IMG/VR virus record: IMGVR_UViG_3300024518_001350
Location: 1 to 59,149 of that record
From: a virus
Length of the DNA stretch: 59,149 bases
Strand: one strand, 5' to 3'
Below, piece after piece: positions 29,584 to 57,990 of this stretch. The notes beneath the pieces were generated by a model that was given only the letters and a program-made list of their open reading frames with translations, was not told the origin of the DNA and did no database searches. Every line of letters starts with the position of its first letter. Position 1 is the first letter of the stretch. Position numbers and translations under genes: made by a program.

Positions 29584-31683
29584 ATGGCATACAATAACGC
29601 AGGAATATCTGGCTTGACCGGACCTGATAGTCATGAGTCACCAGACATACTCCAAAGGCTGGATATGTACAGAGGCTACCCAAGTGAAAAGCTTGGGCCA
29701 ATTGCATCCAATGGAGATCTTGCAGCCGTTAGTGTGCTTGCTGACAGAAAGGATCAGGAGAGAAGACAGAAAGAAAATGCAGCTAAGAACCCAACAACCA
29801 CTGCTATAGAAGATTTGATTGCAAGGAATAACTTTCCAGTGGGTAGTAATAGTCTTCCTCAGATGCCTCAAGGTAGACCCGGTATGCAGGGAGCAGACAC
29901 TGCTATGCCTAATATGGGAAGCCCCCCAGGGGCAGGCATGATAGGCGCATCATCCTCTCCGGGGATGGGACTTGCAAGCCAAGGTCCACCCACAGGCTCT
30001 CAGATGCCCCCTGCTGGATTTAATCAACAGCAGGTACCTGGACAGCCCCCTGTCATGGGAGCCAAGGACGGGGGTCTGGTGGACAGATTCAGAAGATCTG
30101 GTGTGAGAGGGTTTAGTGGGGAATATGGCAAGTCTGGATCCTTGATGACTCCAAGTCAGAGAGACGCACTTGATGCCTATAACCGATGGGGTGTTCCTCT
30201 CCCCCCAGGACATCCAAGTTATGATACTGGTCTAGAAGTCTATGCACAGGAGTCACACGCTGATAGATATCGTGCTGAGCAGGAAGCTAGTGGAATGAAG
30301 GTGGGTAGATATAGGGACTTGCCTATACCTCGTAGCGAAATTTCATACAGGTTACCCTTTAGAAGAGATGAACTAGGTGGAGAATACGGACCAGGGCAAG
30401 CTCCTCATGTACCTGCTAGCGATCTCATGCCTCCTGTGCAGGGCATGAAATATAACTTTAATACAGAACCTAGGGAGACGTTCGATACAGGGGCAGACGT
30501 ACCCGGTCAGAAATTTGGTAGGTTTTTAAAGGCTATGAGTAAGATTGATATTCCCGATGTACTCCGTTGGGATCCTGACCACCCATCACTGCACACTAAT
30601 GATGATTGGACTAGTAATAGCGAGTACTACAAAGGTAAAGGCAAGCATGTTAGAGATATTATTGGAGATAAGATAGGTGGAGCCTATAATGCTTTCAAGG
30701 GTGGGATTGATAATAACCCACTTGGAAGGACGGGTAGTGAGTCAGGACATCCTCCGGGTGTATCATTGTTCGTTGATCAGCCATGGATGAAAAGAGTAAG
30801 AGAGAATGTAGCTCAAGGAGAGCCTGATCAAGATCGTATAGCAGCTATGGAAGGTTGGAACTGGTTCGGAGGAATGTTTGATTCTGATGATGTTGGATAT
30901 CAAAACAGAAAGAAAGCAGGAGGGCAAGCCTCTGAAGAGAAAGGAGTTGGAGGTGGCGGTGGCGGTCCTAAAGAAGGTGTAGAAGGTAGACCTAGACCAC
31001 CACTCCTAGAGGCTGGTAAGGTAGATGTTACTGCTATGGATATGTTCATGGATAAGATTGAGGAAATGCAGAGGGGTAAGAGGGGGATGGCCTTACTAGC
31101 GATGGCAGCAGAGATGGGCAAATATCATAAGGGAGGATTCCTTCCATCAGCAGTTGCTGGTATGAATGCTGCTGGTCAATCTGCAAGGGATACTGACACT
31201 CAGACTTTGAAGGGCTATGGTTTAGGAGCAGAGCTGCAACTTCAGAAAGAAAAAATTGCCAATGATTATGCAGTAGGAATGGGTAGAAATGCTTCATACG
31301 CAAGTAATGCCAATGAAAAGGCATATAAAGCCCTAACAAAGGAACAGCGAAGTCTTGTAAATGACCGTATGAAGGCATTCGATACGTCAGCAGATGGTCC
31401 AAGGGCATTAGAAGCTCTCATGCTTGGACGCATGGGATCAAGGGACGACTACAGATATCTTCAATACGCTTTCTATGGTGGAAATGAAATTGATTCAACC
31501 TTGAGTGGTGCAGGTGATTGGGGTCAAGTATCTCCTAGGGATCGTACTGAAGCCAGATCGATAGTTATGCAAGCATTAGTTGCTGATGTTCAGATGCAAT
31601 TAGACATCGGGGGATCTGGTGGGGGTGGTCAAATAAACATAGCTTCTCTGGGTGGTAAACCTATAACTGCGAGTAGATTCTAG
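29584..31683 (+). CDS. Internal virion protein (699 aa)
   Basis: Proline/glycine/methionine-rich N-terminal half (MPQGRPGMQG, PGMGLASQGPP) and a more globular helical C-terminal half (MDKIEEMQRGKRGMALLAM; AMNAAGQSARDTDTQ-like segments). This alternation of unstructured and helical parts is common in podovirus internal proteins. The last TAG overlaps the GTG of the giant gene, so the two are translationally coupled. No catalytic motif seen. Confidence 0.55.
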   Translation: MAYNNAGISGLTGPDSHESPDILQRLDMYRGYPSEKLGPIASNGDLAAVSVLADRKDQERRQKENAAKNPTTTAIEDLIARNNFPVGSNSLPQMPQGRPGMQGADTAMPNMGSPPGAGMIGASSSPGMGLASQGPPTGSQMPPAGFNQQQVPGQPPVMGAKDGGLVDRFRRSGVRGFSGEYGKSGSLMTPSQRDALDAYNRWGVPLPPGHPSYDTGLEVYAQESHADRYRAEQEASGMKVGRYRDLPIPRSEISYRLPFRRDELGGEYGPGQAPHVPASDLMPPVQGMKYNFNTEPRETFDTGADVPGQKFGRFLKAMSKIDIPDVLRWDPDHPSLHTNDDWTSNSEYYKGKGKHVRDIIGDKIGGAYNAFKGGIDNNPLGRTGSESGHPPGVSLFVDQPWMKRVRENVAQGEPDQDRIAAMEGWNWFGGMFDSDDVGYQNRKKAGGQASEEKGVGGGGGGPKEGVEGRPRPPLLEAGKVDVTAMDMFMDKIEEMQRGKRGMALLAMAAEMGKYHKGGFLPSAVAGMNAAGQSARDTDTQTLKGYGLGAELQLQKEKIANDYAVGMGRNASYASNANEKAYKALTKEQRSLVNDRMKAFDTSADGPRALEALMLGRMGSRDDYRYLQYAFYGGNEIDSTLSGAGDWGQVSPRDRTEARSIVMQALVADVQMQLDIGGSGGGGQINIASLGGKPITASRF

Positions 31684-34600
31684 TGGGAACATATAAATAC
31701 TTCTTTCCAACTGGAGGGTACTATCCTGTAGAAGATGATGTATCTATGGAAGATGCAGGCAATCAATTACAGGAATTGTATCCTGCTGGGTTCTATCAAA
31801 ATTTTAGTCCTATGCAGAGAGAAGAAGATATTCGTCAACGTGAGGCTGACAATCAAGGATTCTTTATGGATGTAGTTGGCGAGCCCATTCTTACTGGATT
31901 GGAACGTCATCTCACAACCCTTCCTTTAGCCGGTAGGTTGGCTCATGATTTTGCTACTGCAACTAAAGAGCAGATGAATGACCCTAGGCATCTACAGCAA
32001 TATCGAGATGATTTTGCAGCGATGTCACAGGAGAAGCAAAAGCATACCTTCAGGCAAGCATCTGAACTTATAGCAAGAGGTGAGTTTACAGACTCTGCCA
32101 AGGAGCTTGGCATGTCAGGGCTAGAGAATTTCTTTGGCATGTTGGCCCACTGGGCACCAACGATTGCTTCAAGCAAGCTTGGAGCTGCTGCTGGTACCGC
32201 CATAGCACCCGGTCCTGGCACTCTCGCTGGTGGTATGATTGGGTATTCTGCTATGTCTGCCGATCAGTTTCTAGCAGAGAATCTGATGGAGTCGATTCAG
32301 AGCAACCCAGACATAACCCTTAATGATATAGCAGATAGATTCCCACATTTATTACTTGCCACTGCTGGTCAGGTAGCAACTGAAGCTGTTGCCTTTAAGG
32401 TGTTGGGATTGTTCAGCAACAAGTTACTTGGCAGCATACCTAAGAATGCACCTATAAAAAGGGAACTTGTAAATTCAACTCAGAGAAAAATAGCAAGTAT
32501 AACTGGACCTAGATCTACGGTTCCTAGAAATATAGCACAAGGTGCAGTCGGAGAGGGTGGAGCAGAAGTACTCCAACACATCATGACCAAGTGGCAGGCT
32601 AATGTTCCGATAGATTACGCCGAAGAAGACCACATGTGGGAGTTGATGGAGAACTTCTGGGGTGGATTGAGTGGTGGTGCAGGTATTGGTGCAATGACTA
32701 GTCTGATTGATGGACGTAATCCACAGACTAGCAAGAGAGACAAAGATCTGCAAGATGAAAAGATTAAGAGTTGGGCACATGCTAGAGCAAGAACTGCACA
32801 GCTAGAGACCCAAAGACTTGAAGCAGAGAATAGAGATAAGCAAGCACAAGCAGCAGAAAACTCCCAACTTGAAGCTGAACTAATCAACGAGCAGATAGAT
32901 GTGGATAGGAATGAAGGTAGGTCTGTAGTCTCAGAAGAAGACATACATGCTGCTGCTCTTGAGAGGAATATAAACTCAAGAGATGGAGGGTTCATTGACT
33001 TTGTTAGGAGAACATTCCCTAGTCATGAAGGTCAAATAGATAGCCTGTCAGATCTCAGTTTACAAGAGAAGAACATCCTCTACCAGAATCTTAAAAGATT
33101 CCAGAGGCAAGGAGCAACTGGAACTGGAGAGTCACAACCCGTAAGCTTCAGGGCACACTCAGATAGTGACATTGAGAAAGTAACTGATTCTATAGCTAAG
33201 AGGTTTAAGAGACATAAGAATAAGGCTAAGTTATTCACAGTTGAAGATGTCAAGAAAATACTTGGTGATGCCAGTGATGAGAGAGCCAAATCTTTGATCG
33301 AAGAGTTGCGTGTGAACGGTGTAGTAGAAAACGAAGGGGTAACAGAAACATTAGAACGACTAACGAAGAAACATAGAGAAGATTCAGTAGATTATGATAA
33401 TGATTTCGAGCCAGACTATACAGCACAACAACTTTCTGACCTGTCAGAGGAAGCCTCTAATTGGAATGAAGGTGACAACATCTCACCAGAATTAGGTAGA
33501 TTAATATTAGATAATTCTGGATACGTACTAAACGATGCACAGGTAGATCCAAATACAAGAGCTATATTAGATATAGCGAGAGAGACAACTACATTTCCAA
33601 CATGGGAAGAGATACAGAGGCGCACTAAGGGCAGTAGCCAAGCAGAAACAGTTTTAAAAAGCCAGTATGATGAGGTTGTAGAAAAATTAAAAGCGGATGG
33701 TTCATTACAAACCAATGCAGATGGTGAACTTTTCTTGGCAAGCAGGTATGAACAGGGTGTAGTAGGGAGACAGTATAGAGGAGTAGAGAGAGGAAAGTTC
33801 GTAGTCAGGGCATTGGATGGTTCGATAATATCAGTACATGATACTATCGAAGGTGCTAAGCAGTCAGCACATGAAGCCAATGAAGACAAAGGTGGAGGAG
33901 GCTACGACCTAACAGATGACTTCGGCAACACCACTAGGATAACTGGACGTAAATCTAAAGAGAGAGCCTTAGCATTCATAAGACAGCATAAGAATAGTAA
34001 ATATAAAATATATGTTGATGGCGTAGAAGCAGAGTCAAATCTTAGTAAGACTAAGGCTGAGAAGCTTTCAAGGTGGATGAGAAGTACTAATGGACTGACT
34101 GGTCAAGAGGGGAGAAGAAGAATCACAGTAGGTAGAGATGAATCTAGCTTCCAGTTTAGATCAACTCCAGATTCATATCTGAATAAGCTACCAGATGTTA
34201 TATCTGCTGGAAACACTAAAGAGAATTTATTCGTTGTCGAGGAAACAAAGCTAGGTGAACAGGGGAGATACTTAGGAAGCAAGCTAATAGGATTAGCAGA
34301 CACATTAGCTGATGCAGAGTCTAAGGCTAACAACTTTAGAGATCTTAGGAGAAAATCATTTGACTCAGTAGGTGGCAAGATAGTAGAAGAAGATGCTGAT
34401 CTAGCAGACTTGAGGAATGATCCAATAGGTCATGCGACGAGGAGGGTCAGGGAGGAATCACCACACTTATCCGAACCTATAACTCCATCAGAATCTAAGA
34501 TATACAAAGCAGAGATGACAGAGTATGGGAAGAGGCTGGAGAAATACTTCAATAGAGCCAAGCTAGGTCATTATGGAATCGGTTTACAATTCGTTCATAA

Positions 34601-37600
34601 TATGCAGGACTTGGCATCTTCATTAAAGAATGGAGAAGATGGTTGGTTTAGTACACAGACTGGGATGATAACCTTACTTGATAGATTAGAATATTCACGC
34701 ATAGATGCTAACTCTTCAGATGAGGAAGTGTATCAAGTATTGCTCCCAATCCTGGGTCATGAGATGATGCACGCCTATGAGACACTTGGTTTAATAAAGC
34801 CTTCCGAGAAGAGAAGGATCCTGAAGAGGATGGAAAAGATAAAGAATGCAAATGGTCAGACCTTGGCAGATGAGGTGCGAGAACGGTATAGACATTTAGA
34901 GGGACCAGAATTAGAATCAGAGATGCTTGCTGTAGCGTTAGAGGTATATATAAAAGAGAGGGGATGGTCTTTAACTGATAAGCAGAAAGCATCTAAGAAA
35001 AAGGATATAACAGGTGCAGATGCAAGTGTGATGAGTAGAATTGGTACATGGCTCAGAGGTCTAGGGTCGTATGTCAATAGTAGTGAATGGACTGGAAGAG
35101 ATGAGAAGTTAATGAGTAAGTTTGTGCCAGGGGAGGAGAGGGACAGTCTTACTGTTAGGTCTGCTCGATCTGGCTTCAGACCATTTGATTCTATGGAGGG
35201 AACCATCAGGCCAGAGAGATACACCGATGGTGAGAAGATCGTATGGGATGGAGATGTAAATTCAAGAGGGGACAAGTGGTTAACTATCGTTGAAGTCAAG
35301 GATATACATAACTTGGCAGATGCTAAGGGTGTACCTTGGGATAACGATGAAGAATTTATGCAGAAAACTATGAGGCTAACTGGTAAATCTAACCATTTAG
35401 ATGAACTCAACCCAAGACAAAGGAGGCTTGTATACCTTGACCTAGCAGACATGCAAGATCCCTACAACATAACTGAAACTCAAAGAACTGTTATCCCTAA
35501 AGAAGAAAAGCCTAGAGCCTCAGCAGCCGATGAAGAAGGAGTTGATAACGAACCTTATACTTACGAAGAAGAGTATCCGGATGAAGCCTATGCTTATGAT
35601 GACGAATACGGTATGGGCAGCAGACCCATAGAAGAAGCTAGGAAACATATGAAAGAAAATGCAAATGTTTCCGTCAATATAGAAAGAATGTATGAGCAAG
35701 AGAATGTAGGTATATGGGATGAAAAGCAGCAAGAGATTATCCTTAGGGAGCTTATACAGAATGCATGGGATGCTGTTAAGGGTGCATACCGGAATGGCAT
35801 TATAGATGAGGGGTCTGGTGTTATAAACGTAGAGATAGAAAGTCCAAATGACTATACAATTTTGGAGCCCGAAGGCAAGGTTCAATCTAAGAAGACAATG
35901 GACTATGATGATCTTGAATCTTTATTTGATGGGATGGATGGCGATGTAGAATTAGTACTCTCCAACATGCGTAAGATGGGAAGCATAGAAGAAAATAATA
36001 CTTTTACCTACAGTGGATCAATGGAAGTTCAGGATAGTGGAACTGGTATGTCACCTGAAGATATAACATACCATTTCCTTAACATCAAGGGATCCTCTAA
36101 GCCCAGCACTGAAGCTTCTGAGACAAGCGGAGGATGGGGTGACGCCAAAATGAGGTTCCTCTTTAATCCAAGCCTTATAGTAGTTGAGTCAACCCAGAAC
36201 GGATTAACTACTAGAATCGTATCTGACAGTCGTACTCTCATAGAAAGCTCAACGGACGTAAACATCGTGCTACCTCACAGTGTTGAGCAAGCATGGAACT
36301 ATGGTACGAGTATGGGTCCGACATGGAGTGATGGACGATTTGACTCAGGAACAAGTGTAAAAGTTTTTCTACCAGTAGACATGCCTGTAAAACACGTAAA
36401 TAGTAAACAACGCAAGGATGTCAAGTGGACCAACCACCCAAGGTTCATGAGCTTTCCTCTAATAGGAGATGTCAAAGTAGATCTCATAGTGGATGGCGTT
36501 AGGACTGATCCAAAGGAAGACTATGATGCACCTGGGAATAGAGAAATCCCAGGAATGGGTAAGGACTTAGACATAGGTGGTAAGTACGAGGAGCCAGTTA
36601 GGTACAACGCAGATTGGGGATACATTGATGTTTACAAAGGGCCTTTTGTAACCAGACAGGTGGAGCCCGGTGATAACTTTTCAACTGCTCCAGTATACGT
36701 GTTCTCATCAGGGCTTTACCAGTTTGACACTAGAGGCCCTCAGAGATCTGGAGACACTGAGTTCTCTGGAAGGGTTGACAAAGCATTCCGATTTGATGCT
36801 TCACATGTGATTGGCAGGCTTCTAAATCGAGAGATTCTATTAGATGTACATTCAAATGTCAGACCAGGGGAGGGGGACTACCCATTCCCTAAGTCAAGAG
36901 ATTCATTGATGGAGGAGGCCAAGGAACTCACTACTATCATAGCTAGGGACATTGTAGGGGAAAGAAGAGATCTGGATAGGAAGGACTTTACCGTTAAGAT
37001 GGGTGACGCCACTTACATGAATAGAACAAATGATCCTGTTCAACAAGGGTTCGTCCACATGGATGATGAAGGGAATGCAATCGAACCTTCTGATGATACC
37101 CTCAACAATGATTTGCCATTACTATATAACTTCAGCACCATCGACAACGAAGATATAACTAATAAACAGATGGAGTTCATCGGAGGGTTGGGCAATATCT
37201 TTCGTGATTTCATAGTTGATATAGACGAGAAGGATATACAAGAGCTAGGTTCTCATAGGAAGACTATGGAATATCCTATGAGAAAGCGAGAGAAGATTGG
37301 TAATTGGTCTACTGCTATTGCTATAGCTCCGAAGAGTGACTGGGCTGGACTGAACATGTTCAAAACATTTTCAGACTCCAGTCTTGATCCAGACTCTTCA
37401 GATTTTAAGGGCTTCAGCGGTATTATGCTAATAGACCCATTCAAGTATAACTTCACCAAGTATCTAGAACAGTACATATCTAAAAACCAAGATATAATAG
37501 ATATGAACTCACATGCAACAACGGCGCAGCAGCTATCTCTAGTTAGCCTTTTACAGAAAACTAATCTTGAGACCTACGCAACAACCTGGGCAAACGCAAT

Positions 37601-40600
37601 CTATTCCACGATGGCACATGAAGCCCTTCATGTTAATCACAGGAGTCATAGTCCCGAAAGATTTATTATAGCCTTGGAAAAGTTTATTTCTGAAGGTGTT
37701 CCTTTGCACAATTTACAAGTCCACATAGACAGCCTATCTGAGCTGTTTACCCAAAACCTAAACGAGTATATAGAATTAAAGGAGATGTATGACGGAGCCA
37801 ATGCGAAATCTGATATCGGCATTCTGGAAGGGACAGAGCTACCAAAGCAAAAGCCCATTCTCAACCAAGATGATAGGGGTCTTAATACCACTAGAGACAC
37901 ACGGTCTGCTGAGCGGACAGGAGGGAGACAAAGAACTGGAGAGTCAGTTCCTCTCGGCGAAAGAGGAAGTAGAAGCAATGAGCGAAGGGGAGTTTCTAGA
38001 CTTCGTAAAGGAATAGTTGGTGAGAAGGGTAAAGCTAGTCGTAACAATACCTCGGCAGGAGGTTCAAGCTGGAGAAACCCTGCTCATGTAGGACAACCAG
38101 ATCTTATTAATAATCCAATAAGCACAAAGGATGGAAATAGGAAAATAGATATAGACAAGAAAGGCTTTCATCTACCTACTTACTTAAGGAGTGTTATTGA
38201 ATCAGTTGTACAGCATTATGCTTTATCTCGAAAGGATGAATATAATAATACTTATGGTAAGCAGAGGTTTACACCAGAAAGAGAACAATCTCTGATAGGA
38301 CAGTATAATAACATAAGCATCGAGCCATCACGGGATGACCATCCTCGTTTTCAACAGCATGATCCAAAGGATGGATATACAACTAATACTGAGATATTCA
38401 AAGAATACGTTAGTAAATATATTGCAGATGTAATAGCCTCAGACCTTGGTATACAAACTGCTGGTACTGATTTCGTCAATGACGAAAATCTAGGTGCTGC
38501 AATTGATGAAGTGATACATGAACATCATGTTAACATGATTGCTATGGGGATTAAGGATTCTAGATTCAGGCTTGACAATGGGTATGGATTGGGATCTACG
38601 CAAGCAGAATGGGATGCAGCCACGTCCATTGAAAAAGAATTAATCATTGAGGAAATTATCGAACTGCAAGTTGAGAGTATTGCTGATGAAGAATTCGGAA
38701 CAGGTGATAAAGCTATTCCTATAACGATTGATCAGGTTCGGGATGCAGTATTCAAAATACAAACCGGAAGGAAGTGGCGTAAAGGTCAGGACTCGGATAG
38801 ACCTATCAGGAATTCAGTTATAGAAAAATTTCGGATCCGAAATGATAAAGACGGAGGAAGATTAAAGGTTATAGAGAAATCTTTCGTAAGATTTACTGGA
38901 CAGGGTAGATATGAGGAGAAAGGTAAAGCTAGTAGGGGAAACCAAGGGGTGGTGGTTACTCCTGATGATGTTTCAATGCTTAGTGAGCTTACTTTGTTTC
39001 ATGGAGGAGACTCTGTACTGAAGAGTCTCAGGAGTGGGAGTGAAGGTGGGTCACTAGGCAGTGGGATTTACCTCACTCCTACAAGGGAAAAGGCTGAAGG
39101 TTACGGAAAGAATCTCTATTCCGTCAATGTAAAGATTGACAATCCTCTTATCATAAGTTCATCCCGAGACGTCACTGCCAAAGCTACCCAACCCCTTAAC
39201 TGGGCCGGAAGCAACACTGCTCCCCGGTGGCTTAATCCTGCTGAACACCTATTGATAAAGCTTGGGGTGCCGAGTGAGAAGGCTCATTCCATAGTCGAAA
39301 AAGAGGAAGAAGAGTACGGTTACGTAAGAAACCGAATCCGTTCTCTGGCGAGAAGACAGGGTTACGATGGTATACTACAGTTTATAGATGGTGAGCTAAT
39401 GGAGGTTGTTGCATTCAGCAAAGGTCAGGTTTCCAATGTAGCCGACGCCATTGGTGAAGAGAAAGGTATGGCTAATATACCAAAGAGGGAAAGGGAAAGA
39501 CTAGAACGTGATAGGCTTGAGGCTATAGAGCAACTACCCCCTGATGAGAGAAGGAGAGTTAAAGAGAGGGATAGGATAGCAAAGGCTAATTCTCTAGCCA
39601 CTAAGGCCAGGAGAAAGGAAGAGGCTGCTGCTAAGAAGGTAGTAGATGACGAGAGAGAACTCCTTGAGAGGGACATAGATACTACTATGTCAAGAGGTAG
39701 GGATCTTGGTAACATGCCAGTACAAATCTTAACCCTCAAGCATACTCCAACAGGGACAAGCATTGATATACACAAGTATCCGAAGGCTAGTGATACACTT
39801 CCATCAATAGTGGGTGTGGATATACCAGTACGCAGTGAGGGATTAGGAAGTGCTGCGATACTCATGGATTATGCTAGGGATATATATCCAGACATCAGAG
39901 TAGAACTAGGTACAGGTGACGCAACAGTACCTAATGCTAAGCGTGTTACATTGATCAGGGATCTAAGTACTGATCAAATACGGAAGCTTATCGAGGTCAA
40001 TGAAATGTTGAAAGAGCGATCCCCTAACAACACTTCTAATTACGAATCAGAAGAATACATACAGGTATTAGCTAACAGGGGAGAAAGAGGTAAAGCTTCT
40101 AGGGGGTTCGATACCACCTTACCTGATCAATTCAGGGCGAAGAAGTTAACATTTAATAAGAACACTCTCGACATGATGGTGAAGGAAGCTAAGTCTATAG
40201 CTATCAACAAGATAAAATCTAGATCCTATCCTGATCTGAAAGGTACCGAGAAGGACAGAAGGATTAAGGATATGGTTAGTAGGCAGCAACGATACTACAA
40301 TGACATCATAAGAGATGACAACATAGCGATGAAGGTAGACGTAGTATCTAAGCTTAGCAATCTATACTCTTCCAATCAGTCAGCCACTAACCATGGAGTT
40401 AACAGCTCTGATCTGTATCAGTTCCTTAAGGAGCTATCAGATGCCGGTGTTTCTAGTAATAGAGTCTTTAAGATAAAGAATGATATGTACGATAGCATGG
40501 GTATGGAAACTAGGAAGATAAAGATAAACGATCTAGAAAGAAATTTATTAGATGACGTATCTAAGATACAGTTCTCTCAAGAATTACTAGAGACTAAGAC

Positions 40601-43600
40601 TCCATTCTCTTCAATCCAGCAGTTGATGGATGACTTTAAAGAAAGAAGTCTTACTACCACACCTCGGACTCAGAATATAAATGGGAGTACGGCTTACTTC
40701 ATTGGAAACGAGCTTGGGTTCACTGAGCCGATTGCTATATTCATGAAGCCTTCCGGGTTCAGGGATATGTCTATAGTTGAGATTGTATCCAACGCCGAGT
40801 ATGGGTCTAGGAATATAGAGTATGCGGGTGAAGGGTCACCTCCACTCCATGGTGCTGAAGCGACAGTAAGAACAGCAATGATTATGCTTGATCCAAGCCT
40901 AGGCAGCAAGGTTGCACAATCAACAGAGAAAGGAAGAGCAAGCCTAGGGTATAACTCAACAGTGCATAGTACTGAAGAGCAAGCGATAATGGCTAAGGTT
41001 CATGCACCTGTAAAGCATAGTATATTCAACCAACTAAAAATGTTCTTTGCCGATGACAGCTTCCGAGAGCAGAAGCTATTGGATACAAGGGAAGGATTGG
41101 TGTTCAAGTATGATCCCATAGAGAAGACTTCTGATGAGGTGAGAAGAAGAGCCTTGGATAGGGATCCTGAAAACCCTGTGCTACTGTCCGACACTGGACT
41201 TGGAGATGTTATTCTGGCACAGAAGGGTAATGGTTTACTAGCTGCTTCGTTGAAGTATGGTGTACCAATCTTTGATAAGGTAGCTGGGCTAACTCAAGCT
41301 AAGCTAGGTAGCTTCAAGCTACAGAACATTGAAGGACTACCACCCATATATGAAAAAGAATTTGGTGGCATGATAGACATACTTGGGCCTGCCATAAGTG
41401 ACTATGGTATCAGGGAAGACCTAATGAGGAAGGTCCATGTAGTTCTGTTAGCAACCAGAGGAAGGAGATTTATAAAGGAGAAAAAATTAATACCAGAGGG
41501 TATTAATCCAGAATACCTAGCACTAGCTGATAAGTTCTTGAAGACAAACCCAGAGATTCAAGCCATAGTACACAACTATCAGAGATGGAATGAAGCAATG
41601 ATAGACCATGGGGTTGCTACTGAGTACCTATCCGAGGAGCAGGGTGCAGCATTAAAGAAAAATATGGATTACGTTTCGTTCAAGAGACAATCAATGAACA
41701 TGGAAGACCAACTCTTAGATCATGATTCACTCTTCAATCAGGAACTTCAAGAAGGACTTAAGGGTGACCTCCAAGATCTTAAGCAACCACCCAGGTACAA
41801 GGGTAGCAGGTATGGATTGATAGAAGGCTTCCTAGAGGGAGCTAGCCTTAATGCGTTTACTATGATCCAGAGGGGTCTGAATAATCGGGCAAGTAAGTCT
41901 GTAATAAATGATCAGAAGATTATATTCCCCGATCAGGTTAGGCGTGCAGGTGAGGGCAAAGATGCTAATGGAGTAGATAACAATAAGCTTAGGGATATGA
42001 ATGGTGAGCTACCCACCATGATAGTGAGGGAGAATGGTGAAGAGGTAACATATGTAATAGCTGATGCTCGTGTGGCGAATGCAATGAAGGGATCAATAGG
42101 TATTAGGGATCCATTTGTGGATGGAGTAATGGCTAGGTTCTCTGCTGTGCTGAGGAAGGGTGTCACCATAGCACCAGAGTTTATATACAGAAACACACTA
42201 AAAGATCCAATGGTAAATGCTCTGATCGGTGGTCAATTCAAGGGCTGGAAGGCTCTTACATTGCCATTCGTTGTAGCGGGCAATGCAGTGTCTCACCTTG
42301 CAGGTGGGTCAAGCTACTACACTAAGGAGTTCCTTGAGCTTGAGTCCGTTGGTGGTGCTAGTGGTATCTATAATGATGCACTGTATGCACCAACCCCCGA
42401 GGGATTCAACAACATGCTGGGAGATCAGAAGAGGGGCAAGATAGGATTGAATCCAAAGAAGACATTCTTCGCTATATGGGATGGGCTTGGTGTTGCAAGT
42501 ACCAAATCTGAAACTGCAACTAGGGAGAGAGTTTATGATTCAGTATTGAATGAAACTGGTAGCCTTAAAGAAGCTTTGATACAAGGCATTGAAGTTATGA
42601 ACTATGACAGGAGAGGTGGTAACCAGAACTTTGCTAGGTACGCTTCGATGGCAACCTTCTTGAGTGCCAGTATAAACGGTTGGGACATAGCAGACAGGAC
42701 ATTAAGAAAGGGTACATATAGTATTGATGCCAATCAGAACAACAACGAAGCAAGGAAGAGAGCATGGTACAGGGTAGGTGCGATGGCTGCATTATCTGTC
42801 GGCTATGCCCTAGCATGGGCAGGTGGAGATGATGATGAATGGAGATCATTCGGAGATGAGGTTAGATATAGTAACTGGTTAGTTCCATTCTTTGGTAGTG
42901 CTATCGCAGTCGGGTTGCCATTTGAGTTAGGTGTACTAACTAAGGTGATACCAGAGCTAGCGGTAAGGACGATGCTAAAGGGTATGGATCCATCTGAAGC
43001 AGCCATGATACTGCTAGGTCAAGTTTGGGGTGCAGCTCCAAACATAGCTATGCCTACAGCCTTAGCTGGCATGATCAACATAGGCGGGAGTCCTTGGTCA
43101 GAATCAAGAGGGTGGAATCCCTTCCTTAAGTCTCCTATAATCCCTGACCATATGCCAGTTGGTCCAATGGCTTACGATAATAAGACTAGCCTAACTGCAA
43201 GAGGCTTAGCTACTATGCTTCCGGGTGGTAGTAGTCCTAAGAAATGGGAACATCTTGTCTCTATGTATGGTGGCACCATGGCTGTCAATATCCTAGCTAT
43301 AGCTGATACACTCGTTGATCAACTGATGCCTGGGTTTGCAGCTACCCCCTACACTGAAGCATTTGAAAATATACCTACAGTGAGAGCTATACTCAAACAC
43401 CCGGATGGTGCATCACATATAAATAAATTCCATAAATGGTTCAAGCAGGTAGAGGATCTTACTCATGAGGTTAGAGTTCTGAGTATAGAGAATCCAGCGA
43501 AGGGAAGAAAATTAAAAGAGGCAAACCGTACTACATTGAAGTATGCTCCGATGGCTCAGTCAGTTAAGTCTAGACTTCAAAAGCTTGATAGAAAAGCAAG

Positions 43601-43754
43601 GATAATCAGAGCAAATAAGCATATGGGTAGTAGCGAAAGAACAAAAGCGTTAGAGAGAATAAGGCTAATGAAATTAACTGAGGTTCAGAGGTTTAACAAA
43701 AAGATAGAGGGTAAAGATTACAAGCACATGTCTTATAGTGGTAGAACGTACTGA
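31683..43754 (+). CDS. Giant polyvalent protein (4023 aa): two HExxH sites, GHKL ATPase, ART-like domain, LPD38-like C-terminus
   Basis: Domains in order: an N-terminal glycine-zipper membrane-like stretch (residues ~150-195); winged-helix-like segments (~510-690); a zinc-peptidase-like HEMMH at 1026-1030; a GHKL (HSP90/MutL-type) ATPase with E1356, N1360, D1363, then DSGTG at 1451-1455 and GGWGDA at 1483-1488; a second HExxH, HEALH at 1979-1983; an ADP-ribosyltransferase-like domain with H2440, Y2463 and E2574 in the polyvalent-ART layout; a coiled, charged stretch (~2600-2670); a GNAT-like segment (~2730); and a C-terminal region with hydrophobic helices resembling large polyvalent protein-associated domain 38. 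EKGKASR-like motifs separate the later modules. Such proteins are thought to be packed or injected and act on host targets at entry. The GTG start overlaps the previous stop. Domain calls are by motif; ATPase and ART are the firmest. Confidence 0.8.
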   Translation: MGTYKYFFPTGGYYPVEDDVSMEDAGNQLQELYPAGFYQNFSPMQREEDIRQREADNQGFFMDVVGEPILTGLERHLTTLPLAGRLAHDFATATKEQMNDPRHLQQYRDDFAAMSQEKQKHTFRQASELIARGEFTDSAKELGMSGLENFFGMLAHWAPTIASSKLGAAAGTAIAPGPGTLAGGMIGYSAMSADQFLAENLMESIQSNPDITLNDIADRFPHLLLATAGQVATEAVAFKVLGLFSNKLLGSIPKNAPIKRELVNSTQRKIASITGPRSTVPRNIAQGAVGEGGAEVLQHIMTKWQANVPIDYAEEDHMWELMENFWGGLSGGAGIGAMTSLIDGRNPQTSKRDKDLQDEKIKSWAHARARTAQLETQRLEAENRDKQAQAAENSQLEAELINEQIDVDRNEGRSVVSEEDIHAAALERNINSRDGGFIDFVRRTFPSHEGQIDSLSDLSLQEKNILYQNLKRFQRQGATGTGESQPVSFRAHSDSDIEKVTDSIAKRFKRHKNKAKLFTVEDVKKILGDASDERAKSLIEELRVNGVVENEGVTETLERLTKKHREDSVDYDNDFEPDYTAQQLSDLSEEASNWNEGDNISPELGRLILDNSGYVLNDAQVDPNTRAILDIARETTTFPTWEEIQRRTKGSSQAETVLKSQYDEVVEKLKADGSLQTNADGELFLASRYEQGVVGRQYRGVERGKFVVRALDGSIISVHDTIEGAKQSAHEANEDKGGGGYDLTDDFGNTTRITGRKSKERALAFIRQHKNSKYKIYVDGVEAESNLSKTKAEKLSRWMRSTNGLTGQEGRRRITVGRDESSFQFRSTPDSYLNKLPDVISAGNTKENLFVVEETKLGEQGRYLGSKLIGLADTLADAESKANNFRDLRRKSFDSVGGKIVEEDADLADLRNDPIGHATRRVREESPHLSEPITPSESKIYKAEMTEYGKRLEKYFNRAKLGHYGIGLQFVHNMQDLASSLKNGEDGWFSTQTGMITLLDRLEYSRIDANSSDEEVYQVLLPILGHEMMHAYETLGLIKPSEKRRILKRMEKIKNANGQTLADEVRERYRHLEGPELESEMLAVALEVYIKERGWSLTDKQKASKKKDITGADASVMSRIGTWLRGLGSYVNSSEWTGRDEKLMSKFVPGEERDSLTVRSARSGFRPFDSMEGTIRPERYTDGEKIVWDGDVNSRGDKWLTIVEVKDIHNLADAKGVPWDNDEEFMQKTMRLTGKSNHLDELNPRQRRLVYLDLADMQDPYNITETQRTVIPKEEKPRASAADEEGVDNEPYTYEEEYPDEAYAYDDEYGMGSRPIEEARKHMKENANVSVNIERMYEQENVGIWDEKQQEIILRELIQNAWDAVKGAYRNGIIDEGSGVINVEIESPNDYTILEPEGKVQSKKTMDYDDLESLFDGMDGDVELVLSNMRKMGSIEENNTFTYSGSMEVQDSGTGMSPEDITYHFLNIKGSSKPSTEASETSGGWGDAKMRFLFNPSLIVVESTQNGLTTRIVSDSRTLIESSTDVNIVLPHSVEQAWNYGTSMGPTWSDGRFDSGTSVKVFLPVDMPVKHVNSKQRKDVKWTNHPRFMSFPLIGDVKVDLIVDGVRTDPKEDYDAPGNREIPGMGKDLDIGGKYEEPVRYNADWGYIDVYKGPFVTRQVEPGDNFSTAPVYVFSSGLYQFDTRGPQRSGDTEFSGRVDKAFRFDASHVIGRLLNREILLDVHSNVRPGEGDYPFPKSRDSLMEEAKELTTIIARDIVGERRDLDRKDFTVKMGDATYMNRTNDPVQQGFVHMDDEGNAIEPSDDTLNNDLPLLYNFSTIDNEDITNKQMEFIGGLGNIFRDFIVDIDEKDIQELGSHRKTMEYPMRKREKIGNWSTAIAIAPKSDWAGLNMFKTFSDSSLDPDSSDFKGFSGIMLIDPFKYNFTKYLEQYISKNQDIIDMNSHATTAQQLSLVSLLQKTNLETYATTWANAIYSTMAHEALHVNHRSHSPERFIIALEKFISEGVPLHNLQVHIDSLSELFTQNLNEYIELKEMYDGANAKSDIGILEGTELPKQKPILNQDDRGLNTTRDTRSAERTGGRQRTGESVPLGERGSRSNERRGVSRLRKGIVGEKGKASRNNTSAGGSSWRNPAHVGQPDLINNPISTKDGNRKIDIDKKGFHLPTYLRSVIESVVQHYALSRKDEYNNTYGKQRFTPEREQSLIGQYNNISIEPSRDDHPRFQQHDPKDGYTTNTEIFKEYVSKYIADVIASDLGIQTAGTDFVNDENLGAAIDEVIHEHHVNMIAMGIKDSRFRLDNGYGLGSTQAEWDAATSIEKELIIEEIIELQVESIADEEFGTGDKAIPITIDQVRDAVFKIQTGRKWRKGQDSDRPIRNSVIEKFRIRNDKDGGRLKVIEKSFVRFTGQGRYEEKGKASRGNQGVVVTPDDVSMLSELTLFHGGDSVLKSLRSGSEGGSLGSGIYLTPTREKAEGYGKNLYSVNVKIDNPLIISSSRDVTAKATQPLNWAGSNTAPRWLNPAEHLLIKLGVPSEKAHSIVEKEEEEYGYVRNRIRSLARRQGYDGILQFIDGELMEVVAFSKGQVSNVADAIGEEKGMANIPKRERERLERDRLEAIEQLPPDERRRVKERDRIAKANSLATKARRKEEAAAKKVVDDERELLERDIDTTMSRGRDLGNMPVQILTLKHTPTGTSIDIHKYPKASDTLPSIVGVDIPVRSEGLGSAAILMDYARDIYPDIRVELGTGDATVPNAKRVTLIRDLSTDQIRKLIEVNEMLKERSPNNTSNYESEEYIQVLANRGERGKASRGFDTTLPDQFRAKKLTFNKNTLDMMVKEAKSIAINKIKSRSYPDLKGTEKDRRIKDMVSRQQRYYNDIIRDDNIAMKVDVVSKLSNLYSSNQSATNHGVNSSDLYQFLKELSDAGVSSNRVFKIKNDMYDSMGMETRKIKINDLERNLLDDVSKIQFSQELLETKTPFSSIQQLMDDFKERSLTTTPRTQNINGSTAYFIGNELGFTEPIAIFMKPSGFRDMSIVEIVSNAEYGSRNIEYAGEGSPPLHGAEATVRTAMIMLDPSLGSKVAQSTEKGRASLGYNSTVHSTEEQAIMAKVHAPVKHSIFNQLKMFFADDSFREQKLLDTREGLVFKYDPIEKTSDEVRRRALDRDPENPVLLSDTGLGDVILAQKGNGLLAASLKYGVPIFDKVAGLTQAKLGSFKLQNIEGLPPIYEKEFGGMIDILGPAISDYGIREDLMRKVHVVLLATRGRRFIKEKKLIPEGINPEYLALADKFLKTNPEIQAIVHNYQRWNEAMIDHGVATEYLSEEQGAALKKNMDYVSFKRQSMNMEDQLLDHDSLFNQELQEGLKGDLQDLKQPPRYKGSRYGLIEGFLEGASLNAFTMIQRGLNNRASKSVINDQKIIFPDQVRRAGEGKDANGVDNNKLRDMNGELPTMIVRENGEEVTYVIADARVANAMKGSIGIRDPFVDGVMARFSAVLRKGVTIAPEFIYRNTLKDPMVNALIGGQFKGWKALTLPFVVAGNAVSHLAGGSSYYTKEFLELESVGGASGIYNDALYAPTPEGFNNMLGDQKRGKIGLNPKKTFFAIWDGLGVASTKSETATRERVYDSVLNETGSLKEALIQGIEVMNYDRRGGNQNFARYASMATFLSASINGWDIADRTLRKGTYSIDANQNNNEARKRAWYRVGAMAALSVGYALAWAGGDDDEWRSFGDEVRYSNWLVPFFGSAIAVGLPFELGVLTKVIPELAVRTMLKGMDPSEAAMILLGQVWGAAPNIAMPTALAGMINIGGSPWSESRGWNPFLKSPIIPDHMPVGPMAYDNKTSLTARGLATMLPGGSSPKKWEHLVSMYGGTMAVNILAIADTLVDQLMPGFAATPYTEAFENIPTVRAILKHPDGASHINKFHKWFKQVEDLTHEVRVLSIENPAKGRKLKEANRTTLKYAPMAQSVKSRLQKLDRKARIIRANKHMGSSERTKALERIRLMKLTEVQRFNKKIEGKDYKHMSYSGRTY

Positions 43755-43784: not shown

Positions 43785-44540
43785 TTGGGGAGAAAAAAGC
43801 ATCTCGTTATAGGGGACAGTCATTCAAAGCCAGGGATCAGTAATGCTAGGTACACATGGTTAGGAAGGATGATCGCAGCAGAGAAGCCTGATGTCATTAT
43901 AGACATAGGTGATTTCTATGACATGGAATCATTATGTGGGTGGGACAAGGGCAAGAGAGCATTCCAAGGAAGAGAATATAAAAAAGATATTGAACACGGG
44001 TTAGATGCACAGGACAGGATAGAGGCAGAGCTAAAGAAAGTTAAGGGGTACAAGCCTAAGAAGATTAGATGCTTAGGTAACCATGAGAATAGAATATCTA
44101 GAGTGGTCGAGGACCAAGCAGAGTTCTATGGAACCTTAACTCGTAGTCATTTCCAGAGTGAAGAGTATGGCTGGGAAGAGCATGACTATCTTGAGCCAGT
44201 CAAGGTTGATGGCATAGCATACTGCCACAGCTTTGCCTCTGGTATAATGGGACGACCAATCAGTGGTGAAAACCCAGCAGCATCACTACTTAATAAAAAG
44301 AAAATGAGTTGTATAATTGGTCACAACCATGTGCTAGACTTTGCAACAAGAAACGATGCAATGGGAAAGAAGATGAGTGCAGTTTCAGTTGGTTGTTTCT
44401 TTGAACATGATGAAGCTTATGCTGGTCCACAAGTAAATAGGATGTGGGATAGGGGCATAGTAATTCTTAATGATGTTCAGGCTGGTGAGTTTGACTTTGA
44501 GTGGTGGTCAATGAGAAGAATAAAGGGGAAATATTCATGA
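43785..44540 (+). CDS. Calcineurin-like metallophosphoesterase (251 aa)
   Basis: The two-metal phosphoesterase pattern is complete: D11-x-H13 (GDSHS), D43 (IDIGDFYD), N99-H100-E101 (CLGNHENR), and later CHS and GHNH. Such enzymes hydrolyse phosphomono- or diesters; the phage substrate is unknown (nucleotides, nucleic acid ends or protein). The start is TTG after AGGAG. The next gene starts within its stop (ATGA), so the two are coupled. Confidence 0.85.
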   Translation: MGRKKHLVIGDSHSKPGISNARYTWLGRMIAAEKPDVIIDIGDFYDMESLCGWDKGKRAFQGREYKKDIEHGLDAQDRIEAELKKVKGYKPKKIRCLGNHENRISRVVEDQAEFYGTLTRSHFQSEEYGWEEHDYLEPVKVDGIAYCHSFASGIMGRPISGENPAASLLNKKKMSCIIGHNHVLDFATRNDAMGKKMSAVSVGCFFEHDEAYAGPQVNRMWDRGIVILNDVQAGEFDFEWWSMRRIKGKYS

Positions 44541-45133
44541 GTATTTTAAGTGAACCAGAAACAAAACTAAACCTACCAGCTCCTGAGCTGACACACATAG
44601 TTGATATGGGTGTAGACATAACAAATAGAACAATCTACTTCGATGACTTTGAAGAAGAAAGTGGACAGTGGTTTCTACAGGTCATGAAGTATTTTGAAGG
44701 TCAAGATGTTGAGGATGTAGATCTGTTTTTAAACTCTCCAGGCGGGGATGTTATCAGTATGTTTGCGATCCATGATATAATGAGAAACTCTCCTATAAAT
44801 GTGAGAGTTACAGGGTATGGTCAGGTTTGCAGCGCAGGTGTACTGATACTGGCAGCAGGCAATGAGAGGAATGTAACTGAATCATGTAGCTGGATGTCAC
44901 ATGAACCCACTAGTGGTGGTGATCCAGACCTAGGCTTAAGAGCAGCTAAGTCTAGACGTAAGTGGGAAGACTGGAGCCATGTACACTGGTGCAGTTTAAT
45001 GGCTAGATACACACCTAACTCATCAGACTGGTGGGAAAAGCATACAGAAAAACAGGCAGAGTATTGGCTGTTGGGTGGGAAAGAAATTGTCGAAGCAGGA
45101 TTAGCGGACAGGGTAGTGAAAGGAAATGTATAA
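44537..45133 (+). CDS. ClpP-like serine protease (198 aa)
   Basis: ClpP/crotonase-type fold markers: LFLNSPGGDV (residues 63-72), nucleophile S99 in YGQVCSAGV, and H122 in WMSHEPTSG, matching the Ser and His of ClpP. The ATG at 44537 overlaps the previous stop and is preferred over an upstream in-frame ATG at 44501. Phage ClpP homologues often process prohead proteins, but this one sits at the far end of the operon, directly after the giant polyvalent protein and a phosphoesterase, so processing of an ejected or internal protein is possible. Confidence 0.85.
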   Translation: MSILSEPETKLNLPAPELTHIVDMGVDITNRTIYFDDFEEESGQWFLQVMKYFEGQDVEDVDLFLNSPGGDVISMFAIHDIMRNSPINVRVTGYGQVCSAGVLILAAGNERNVTESCSWMSHEPTSGGDPDLGLRAAKSRRKWEDWSHVHWCSLMARYTPNSSDWWEKHTEKQAEYWLLGGKEIVEAGLADRVVKGNV

Positions 45134-50501: not shown

Positions 50502-50577
50502 TGGTAGGGGTGGAGGGAGTCGAACCCTCACTGTAAGGATTTTAAGTCCTCTTTCTCTGCCATTGGAATACACCCCC
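50502..50577 (-). tRNA. tRNA-Leu(UAA)-like, short variable loop, CCA encoded
   Basis: The acceptor GGGGGTG pairs with CACCCCT, the discriminator is A73, and CCA is encoded. The anticodon stem GAGGA/TCCTT closes a loop CTTAAAA, giving anticodon UAA (Leu, TTA codons). The T arm GAGGG-TTCGACT-CCCTC is perfect. The D stem is imperfect (TTCC/GAGA). The variable loop has only 5 bases (ACAGT), whereas bacterial tRNA-Leu normally has a long variable arm. So it is a class I-shaped tRNA with a Leu anticodon. Confidence 0.85.
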
Positions 50578-50728: not shown

Positions 50729-50804
50729 TGGTACTCTGGGTAGGGGTCGAACCTACAACCTGTTGGTTAGAAGCCAACTGCTCTATCCATTGAGCTACCA
50801 GAGC
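50729..50804 (-). tRNA. tRNA-Arg(UCU), CCA encoded
   Basis: The acceptor GCTCTGG/CCAGAGT (G1-U72 wobble), D arm AGCTCAATGGATAGAGC, anticodon stem GTTGG/CCAAC with loop CTTCTAA (anticodon UCU, AGA codons), T arm GTAGG-TTCGACC-CCTAC, discriminator A73 and encoded CCA are all complete. Its 5' end directly abuts the stop of the deoxyribosyltransferase-like gene. Confidence 0.95.
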
Positions 50805-57914: not shown

Positions 57915-57990
57915 TGGTGGACCCTCTCAGATTTGAACTGAGAACCATCCAGTTATGAGCCGGGTGCTCTAACCATTGAGCTAAGGGTCC
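57915..57990 (-). tRNA. tRNA with CAU anticodon, probably tRNA-Ile2, CCA encoded
   Basis: The acceptor GGACCCT/AGGGTCC is perfect, the discriminator is A73, and CCA is encoded. D arm AGCTCAATGGTTAGAGC, anticodon stem with loop CTCATAA (anticodon CAU), T arm TCTCA-GTTCAAA-TCTGA. C4-G69 and C5-G68, and general likeness to the bacterial AUA-reading tRNA-Ile2 (recalled from E. coli), point to Ile2, which needs lysidine modification by host TilS, rather than elongator Met. It is not an initiator tRNA since pair 1-72 is G-C. ATA codons are very common in this genome. Confidence 0.9.

Follow-up and report, generated by a model that had tools for sequence, protein, structure and literature searches.

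How are the parts of a giant phage protein told apart, and is anything reading the short peptides that lie between them? The question is raised by an LPD38-type polyvalent protein encoded in IMG/VR record IMGVR_UViG_3300024518_001350, the whole of which (59,149 nucleotides) was analyzed and is here called the window. The protein matches Pfam LPD38 (PF18857; E 5e-14, 53.2 bits against a cut-off of 27) and brings together unrelated effector-type domains, namely an ART-PolyVal domain (hereafter ART), zincins, and a weak HATPase, and a short tag, EKGKASR, recurs along its cargo section. Comparison with related giants, designated by L numbers, suggests that EKGKASR is this lineage's dialect of a tag that marks the boundaries between exchangeable cargo modules in LPD38-type polyvalent proteins. 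That the boundary tag is real and general we regard as highly probable; that such tags are processing sites is, on the sequences compared, an evenly balanced proposition. The open reading frame (ORF) and the features of its C-terminal half are as follows.

31683..43754, + strand: giant LPD38-type polyvalent protein, vehicle plus cargo (ORF of 4,023 amino acids, GTG start; Pfam LPD38)
38022..38042, + strand: boundary tag 1, EKGKASR, at amino acid 2114
38043..38915, + strand: cargo module M1, whose only homologue in the survey set is in L001
38916..38936, + strand: boundary tag 2, EKGKASR, at amino acid 2412
38982..39458, + strand: ART-PolyVal domain, amino acids 2434-2592, a cassette not in L001
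39459..39476, + strand: boundary tag 3, the diverged copy EKGMAN, at amino acid 2593
39477..40082, + strand: cargo module M2
40083..40103, + strand: boundary tag 4, ERGKASR, at amino acid 2801
40104..40925, + strand: cargo module M3
40926..40946, + strand: boundary tag 5 (the last), EKGRASL, at amino acid 3082, 93 amino acids before the C-terminal carrier match
41208..43691, + strand: conserved C-terminal carrier domain, amino acids 3176-4003, including LPD38 at 42831-43313

The five EKGKASR-like copies, at intervals of 298, 181, 208, and 281 residues, were found where the original prediction had placed them. The strict pattern E[KR]G[KR]AS[RL], which was written after the copies had been seen, occurs four times against 0.0003 expected from composition, and the window repeat family scores 124, more than was reached in any of 60 local shuffles (mean 68.6, highest 117). 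No other window ORF of at least 60 amino acids in six frames contains the motif, and a DNA-level pattern search of the window's own record gave no match because the copies differ in their codons. The prediction had further set every copy at a boundary between globular parts. The case is strong for copies 2 and 3, as the ART occupies the exact interval between them and tag 3 begins at the residue after it, while for copies 1, 4, and 5, which lie in low-pLDDT segments, it is plausible. All five copies in fact fall in segments with pLDDT below 50, though so does 60% of the AlphaFold2 model of the cargo region, which is weak evidence because its confidence is mostly low; a PDB sequence search with the same region gave no match. 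The Pfam match to ART-PolyVal (amino acids 2436-2591) scores 29.1 bits, slightly below the cut-off of 31.2, and the homologous ART in L003 passes with 37.3 bits.

Repeated boundary tags proved to be general. Our survey set comprised 79 further giants from IMG/VR, fetched with a profile of the C-terminal carrier domain, plus relatives from phage records; one member, L013, is a second occurrence of the near relative of the window. A blind self-similarity scan returned repeated heptamers in many giants (D[LIV]PxFSR, [IV]R[FY]SLR, FSR preceded by P[VA], TGGRxxxSR, and others), and four repeated dialects were defined, [IVL]PxFS[RK], [IVL][RK][FY]SL, P[VA]FSR, and the window's GR..AS[RL], all with a core resembling [F/Y/A]-S-[R/L]. 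PxFSR and RYSL came from the blind scan; GRxASR was in part shaped on the giants that bear it, and its counts are softer for that reason. In modular regions [ILV]Px[FY]S[RK] occurs 48 times against a shuffled expectation of 0.8, a 60-fold excess, and [FY]SR lies 4.6-fold above expectation, whereas the control patterns [FY]TR and [FY]AR do not exceed it. The window clade (L001, L003, L016, L019, L024, and L050) has variants of GR..AS[RL] such as SGRERASL, TGRRAASR, GRQSLSR, and RSRASM. Off-diagonal rates are zero among the typed giants, no giant mixing dialects; the dialect labels need 23 changes on the carrier tree compared with a shuffle mean of 49, and GRxASR occupies one side of one branch (support 84). 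By these sequence comparisons the dialect tracks the carrier lineage and not the cargo. Pfam named no cargo domain in three FSR-type giants; the giants of L056, L027, and L067 have up to three ART-PolyVal domains each, with RYSL-type tags between them.

Within the chain, the tags are concentrated in the cargo section. Their density per 1,000 amino acids is 0.17 before the carrier zincin, a conserved region described below, 0 inside it, 1.75 between the zincin and the C-terminal domain, and 0.06 in the C-terminal domain, and the other ORFs of the surveyed loci hold a single match in ~91,000 amino acids. In all four dialects the last tag stands most often 80-100 amino acids ahead of the C-terminal match, so that an equivalent site bears different dialects by lineage. 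A tag lies within 40 amino acids downstream of 28 of the 35 ARTs (10% at random positions), upstream of 22, and on at least one side of 30. Breakpoints of close homology fall within 20 amino acids of a tag in 43 of 88 cases against 12 expected, and in these alignments module gains and losses cluster at tags. The flanks of the ARTs differ by vehicle, with EKGKASR/EKGMAN in the window, GTGRAAVRRE/GIGRAAVRRE in L003, and RYSL-type tags in others. An origin of the tag as part of the ART fold was rejected, because the tag is found next to unrelated modules as well and ARTs that are homologous carry different ones. Outside the survey, a single DI.FSR-like tag follows the ART in proteins of cultured phages, namely Pseudomonas phage F116 ORF60 (L094, amino acid 683), USP_18 (L098, amino acid 3981), and Dfl-JY45 (L096, amino acids 341 and 705), so that the association of ARTs with tags may extend beyond LPD38 giants. 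The sequence after the ART reads TPDILFSRSG in F116 and NRDIRFSRSG in USP_18 (vB_PaeM_USP_18).

Two relatives make the exchange of modules visible. The giant of L001 is ~95% identical to that of the window in the C-terminal third and keeps tags 1, 4, and 5, with a single tag, NYEEKGK|ANIPK, replacing tag 2, the ART cassette, and tag 3; here the gain or loss of a cassette at a tag is seen directly. L003 is a 62-kb viral contig, the only one returned by a scan with the ART alignment, and encodes a giant of 4,293 amino acids whose ART is 53% identical to that of the window. This ART, too, is flanked at either end, but by GTGRAAVRRE and GIGRAAVRRE, copies of a kindred tag that occurs six times in the protein, TGRSAVRRG included. 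In the comparison of these two sequences the cargo is shared and the tag belongs to the vehicle. The original prediction held that homologues lacking EKGKASR at the same boundaries would refute it, and the L003 ART is to the letter such a homologue, yet that phage's own repeated tag stands at the place, and the finding is therefore broadened rather than refuted. The N-terminus of the L003 giant also has an SLT lytic transglycosylase domain (amino acids 85-194), and Pfam reports none in the window giant.

A predicted protease, the HExxH-bearing zincin region, is encoded within the same chain as the tags, and a second HExxH lies nearer to them.

34143..35132, + strand: carrier zincin region, amino acids 821-1150, with HEMMH (amino acid 1026) at 34758-34772; conserved in motif-bearing giants
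37617..37631, + strand: second HExxH, HEALH, at amino acid 1979, private to the window and L001, 135 amino acids before the first tag

A hidden Markov model grown from window amino acids 930-1110 found the zincin in 68 giants; 66 of these 68 matches contain HExxH, and in alignment A4 of the region H206, E207, and H210 are nearly invariant. In 23 giants of the 24 with at least three tags, HExxH precedes the first tag, and the remaining one is truncated. A repeated dialect was present in 40 of the 64 full-length giants that bear the zincin and in none of the nine that do not (Fisher p 4e-4, uncorrected for kinship). The core of the zincin-region model has pLDDT above 90, and VIA-align gave zincin metallopeptidases as its best structural neighbors at modest Z (5.8 at most), a resemblance of fold only; Foldseek with the same model returned no match at E<=0.001. 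Pfam SprT-like matches weakly in 12 of 41 zincin members, and tblastn of the L018 zincin region against phage records gave no match. For the second HExxH, a role in additional processing or as an effector is conceivable.

That many short sites of one protein have changed together, and differently by lineage, implies that something reads them all, and the presence of tags at nearly every cargo border, and not in the carrier parts, favors cutting over docking. In the reading we favor, the tags would be recognition and cleavage sites and the giant a polyprotein, which the virion probably carries and which would be divided into separate effectors while the virion is assembled or once the protein has been ejected. 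The enzyme may be the zincin in the N-terminal part of the carrier (HEMMH), which would act in cis or on neighboring copies, and tag and enzyme might drift together, giving rise to lineage-specific dialects. Taken whole, lineage-specific processing sites in a cargo polyprotein, with the carrier's zincin as the likeliest enzyme, would best explain the data, at a probability a little short of even. The zincin as the cutting enzyme, judged by itself, is a tentative assignment, and slightly more tentative is the wider proposal that a large group of tailed phages may have effector polyproteins self-cut by a zincin at a drifting lineage code, such that new cargo would have to adopt the code of its vehicle for release. 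That zincins process polyvalent proteins was proposed by Iyer et al. (PMC5512222), and in the tags this proposal would gain the candidate sites that it lacked. Of the two roles originally suggested, a signal between separable effectors that is processed or recognized is the better reading, with tags at module borders in many giants, in one form per protein and in the cargo section only, and a docking tag is the less probable one.

Several observations weigh against processing by the zincin. Under the patterns used, 24 of the 64 zincin-bearing giants have no repeated dialect; the zincin-less giants belong mostly to one clade of cultured-phage records, so that the association of zincin and dialect is not independent of kinship; and the dialect patterns, that of GRxASR above all, were partly fitted to their members. 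The synonymous codons of tag copies agree in 195 of 388 comparisons against 150 expected overall, a modest excess, and in L003 in 56 of 92 against 24, a strong one, which indicates that part of the tag repetition reflects copying of DNA along with modules. Finally, the virion RNA polymerase (vRNAP) of phage N4 contains an HExxH domain, yet it is packaged without being processed (PMC5512222) and was expressed at full length (PMC12633501); it stays intact, and processing is hence not a given.

The codon agreement is what might be expected if the tags were recombination seams, that is, short repeats that travel with modules and promote or record their exchange, the peptide itself having no role. 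Homology breakpoints do cluster at tags, and direct repeats flank the window ART cassette that is cleanly missing in L001. In most giants, however, copies that keep the residues disagree at roughly half of their synonymous codons, and among the window copies the same tag serine is encoded by AGT, TCT, and AGC; moreover, homologous ARTs switch tag with their vehicle, and the last tag appears at an equivalent position also in the local dialect. Seams without a peptide function are, on balance, quite unlikely. Somewhat better placed, though still unlikely, is a role as docking or ejection handles, in which the tags would stay uncut and either bind a partner in the capsid, tail, or ejectosome or serve as threading and refolding signals, so positioning modules for packaging or passage through the tail. 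A drifting binding partner would fit concerted, lineage-specific change equally well, and the domains of N4 vRNAP are held on flexible linkers in a chain that remains whole (PMC12633501). A capsid targeting signal is known in P1 DarB, yet it is one N-terminal stretch of fewer than 30 residues (PMC9024508); a docking signal is needed once, whereas the tags stand at nearly every cargo border and in none of the carrier parts, and no other protein of these loci bears them beyond the single match given above. As for chance likeness of short charged linkers, self-similarity scans of long proteins do yield chance families, as the shuffle maximum lying so near the observed score illustrates; against this stand the count of the strict pattern, the placement of tags at ART borders, and the parallels found by the blind scan in other lineages, by which the survey effectively refutes it and leaves it a negligible probability.

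The original prediction had named as candidate partner a protease encoded shortly after the giant.

44501..45133, + strand: ClpP-like protease gene, ~1 kb downstream of the giant; present in 2 of 30 related records

Its product is a true protease of the ClpP fold and is similar to head maturation proteases, the gene is retained beside the giant in L001, and the window lineage, being far from its sisters, could use an enzyme of its own. Among the 30 related records, several of which are fragments, PF00574 occurs only in the window and the near-identical L001; the gene is missing in the other 28, including the 62-kb L003 with its six kindred tags, and no head protein of the window bears a tag, so that a specificity shared with head maturation is not seen. 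As a general partner of the tags the ClpP-like protein thus fails, and cutting of the giant by it is improbable even in the window. No S78 prohead protease was found in the 30 related records, and A-x-E prohead sites are not present at the tags, where the triplets ending at the tag glutamate are VGE, YEE, GEE, RGE, and STE.

Elsewhere in the window, a calcineurin-like phosphoesterase gene (43785-44540) directly follows the giant and overlaps the start of the ClpP-like gene, and three tRNA genes lie on the minus strand (Leu-TAA, 50502-50577; Arg-TCT, 50729-50804; Met-CAT, 57915-57990). Within the giant itself, amino acids 1445-1525 (36015-36257) weakly match HATPase_c_3, of the HSP90/gyrase/histidine-kinase type of ATPase, a region with a homologue among the surveyed giants only in L001.

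The window giant shares with the LPD38 subset of polyvalent proteins the presence of many unrelated domains in one chain, LPD38, ART-PolyVal, and zincin among them, as set out by Iyer et al. (2017, PMC5512222). That such a giant can be a virion protein follows from gp69 of Burkholderia phage JC1, a DarB-like, LPD38-bearing giant detected in virions by mass spectrometry (PMC9144972); these proteomic data, together with the location of the gene at the end of a structural gene block, indicate indirectly that the window giant is probably carried in the virion as well. It differs in its repeated, lineage-specific boundary tag, which is not described in the portions of the polyvalent-protein literature covered here (PMC5512222, PMC9144972), and no earlier description of boundary tags, or of named processing sites, was found in the parts of the open-access literature that were searched. 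Comparable to it is N4 gp50, the vRNAP, a giant ejected protein with an N-terminal membrane-active part, an HExxH domain, and flexible linkers between globular parts, but gp50 stays a single chain, for which the part of PMC12633501 covered here reports no repeated tag. The substrates of prohead proteases, as in SPN3US (PMC10052503) and P1, are packaged head proteins cut at short lineage-specific motifs; in SPN3US, however, cleavage occurs after A-x-E, mostly removes N-terminal propeptides, and has its site in several head proteins (PMC10052503), whereas the window tags are internal, without A-x-E, and in one protein only.

For polyvalent proteins, whose domains are mostly unnamed, the tags offer a rule by which module borders and cargo effectors can be located from sequence, and they turn the idea of processing into precise predictions of which bonds and which active site would be involved. 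In the polyproteins of RNA viruses, a protease within the chain acts at repeated junction sites and the two drift together. For the window giant, in which cleavage is a proposal, the likeness is one of working and not of relationship; if the proposal is true, these giants would represent a phage polyprotein strategy with a co-evolving code of protease and site that also governs the exchange of cargo.

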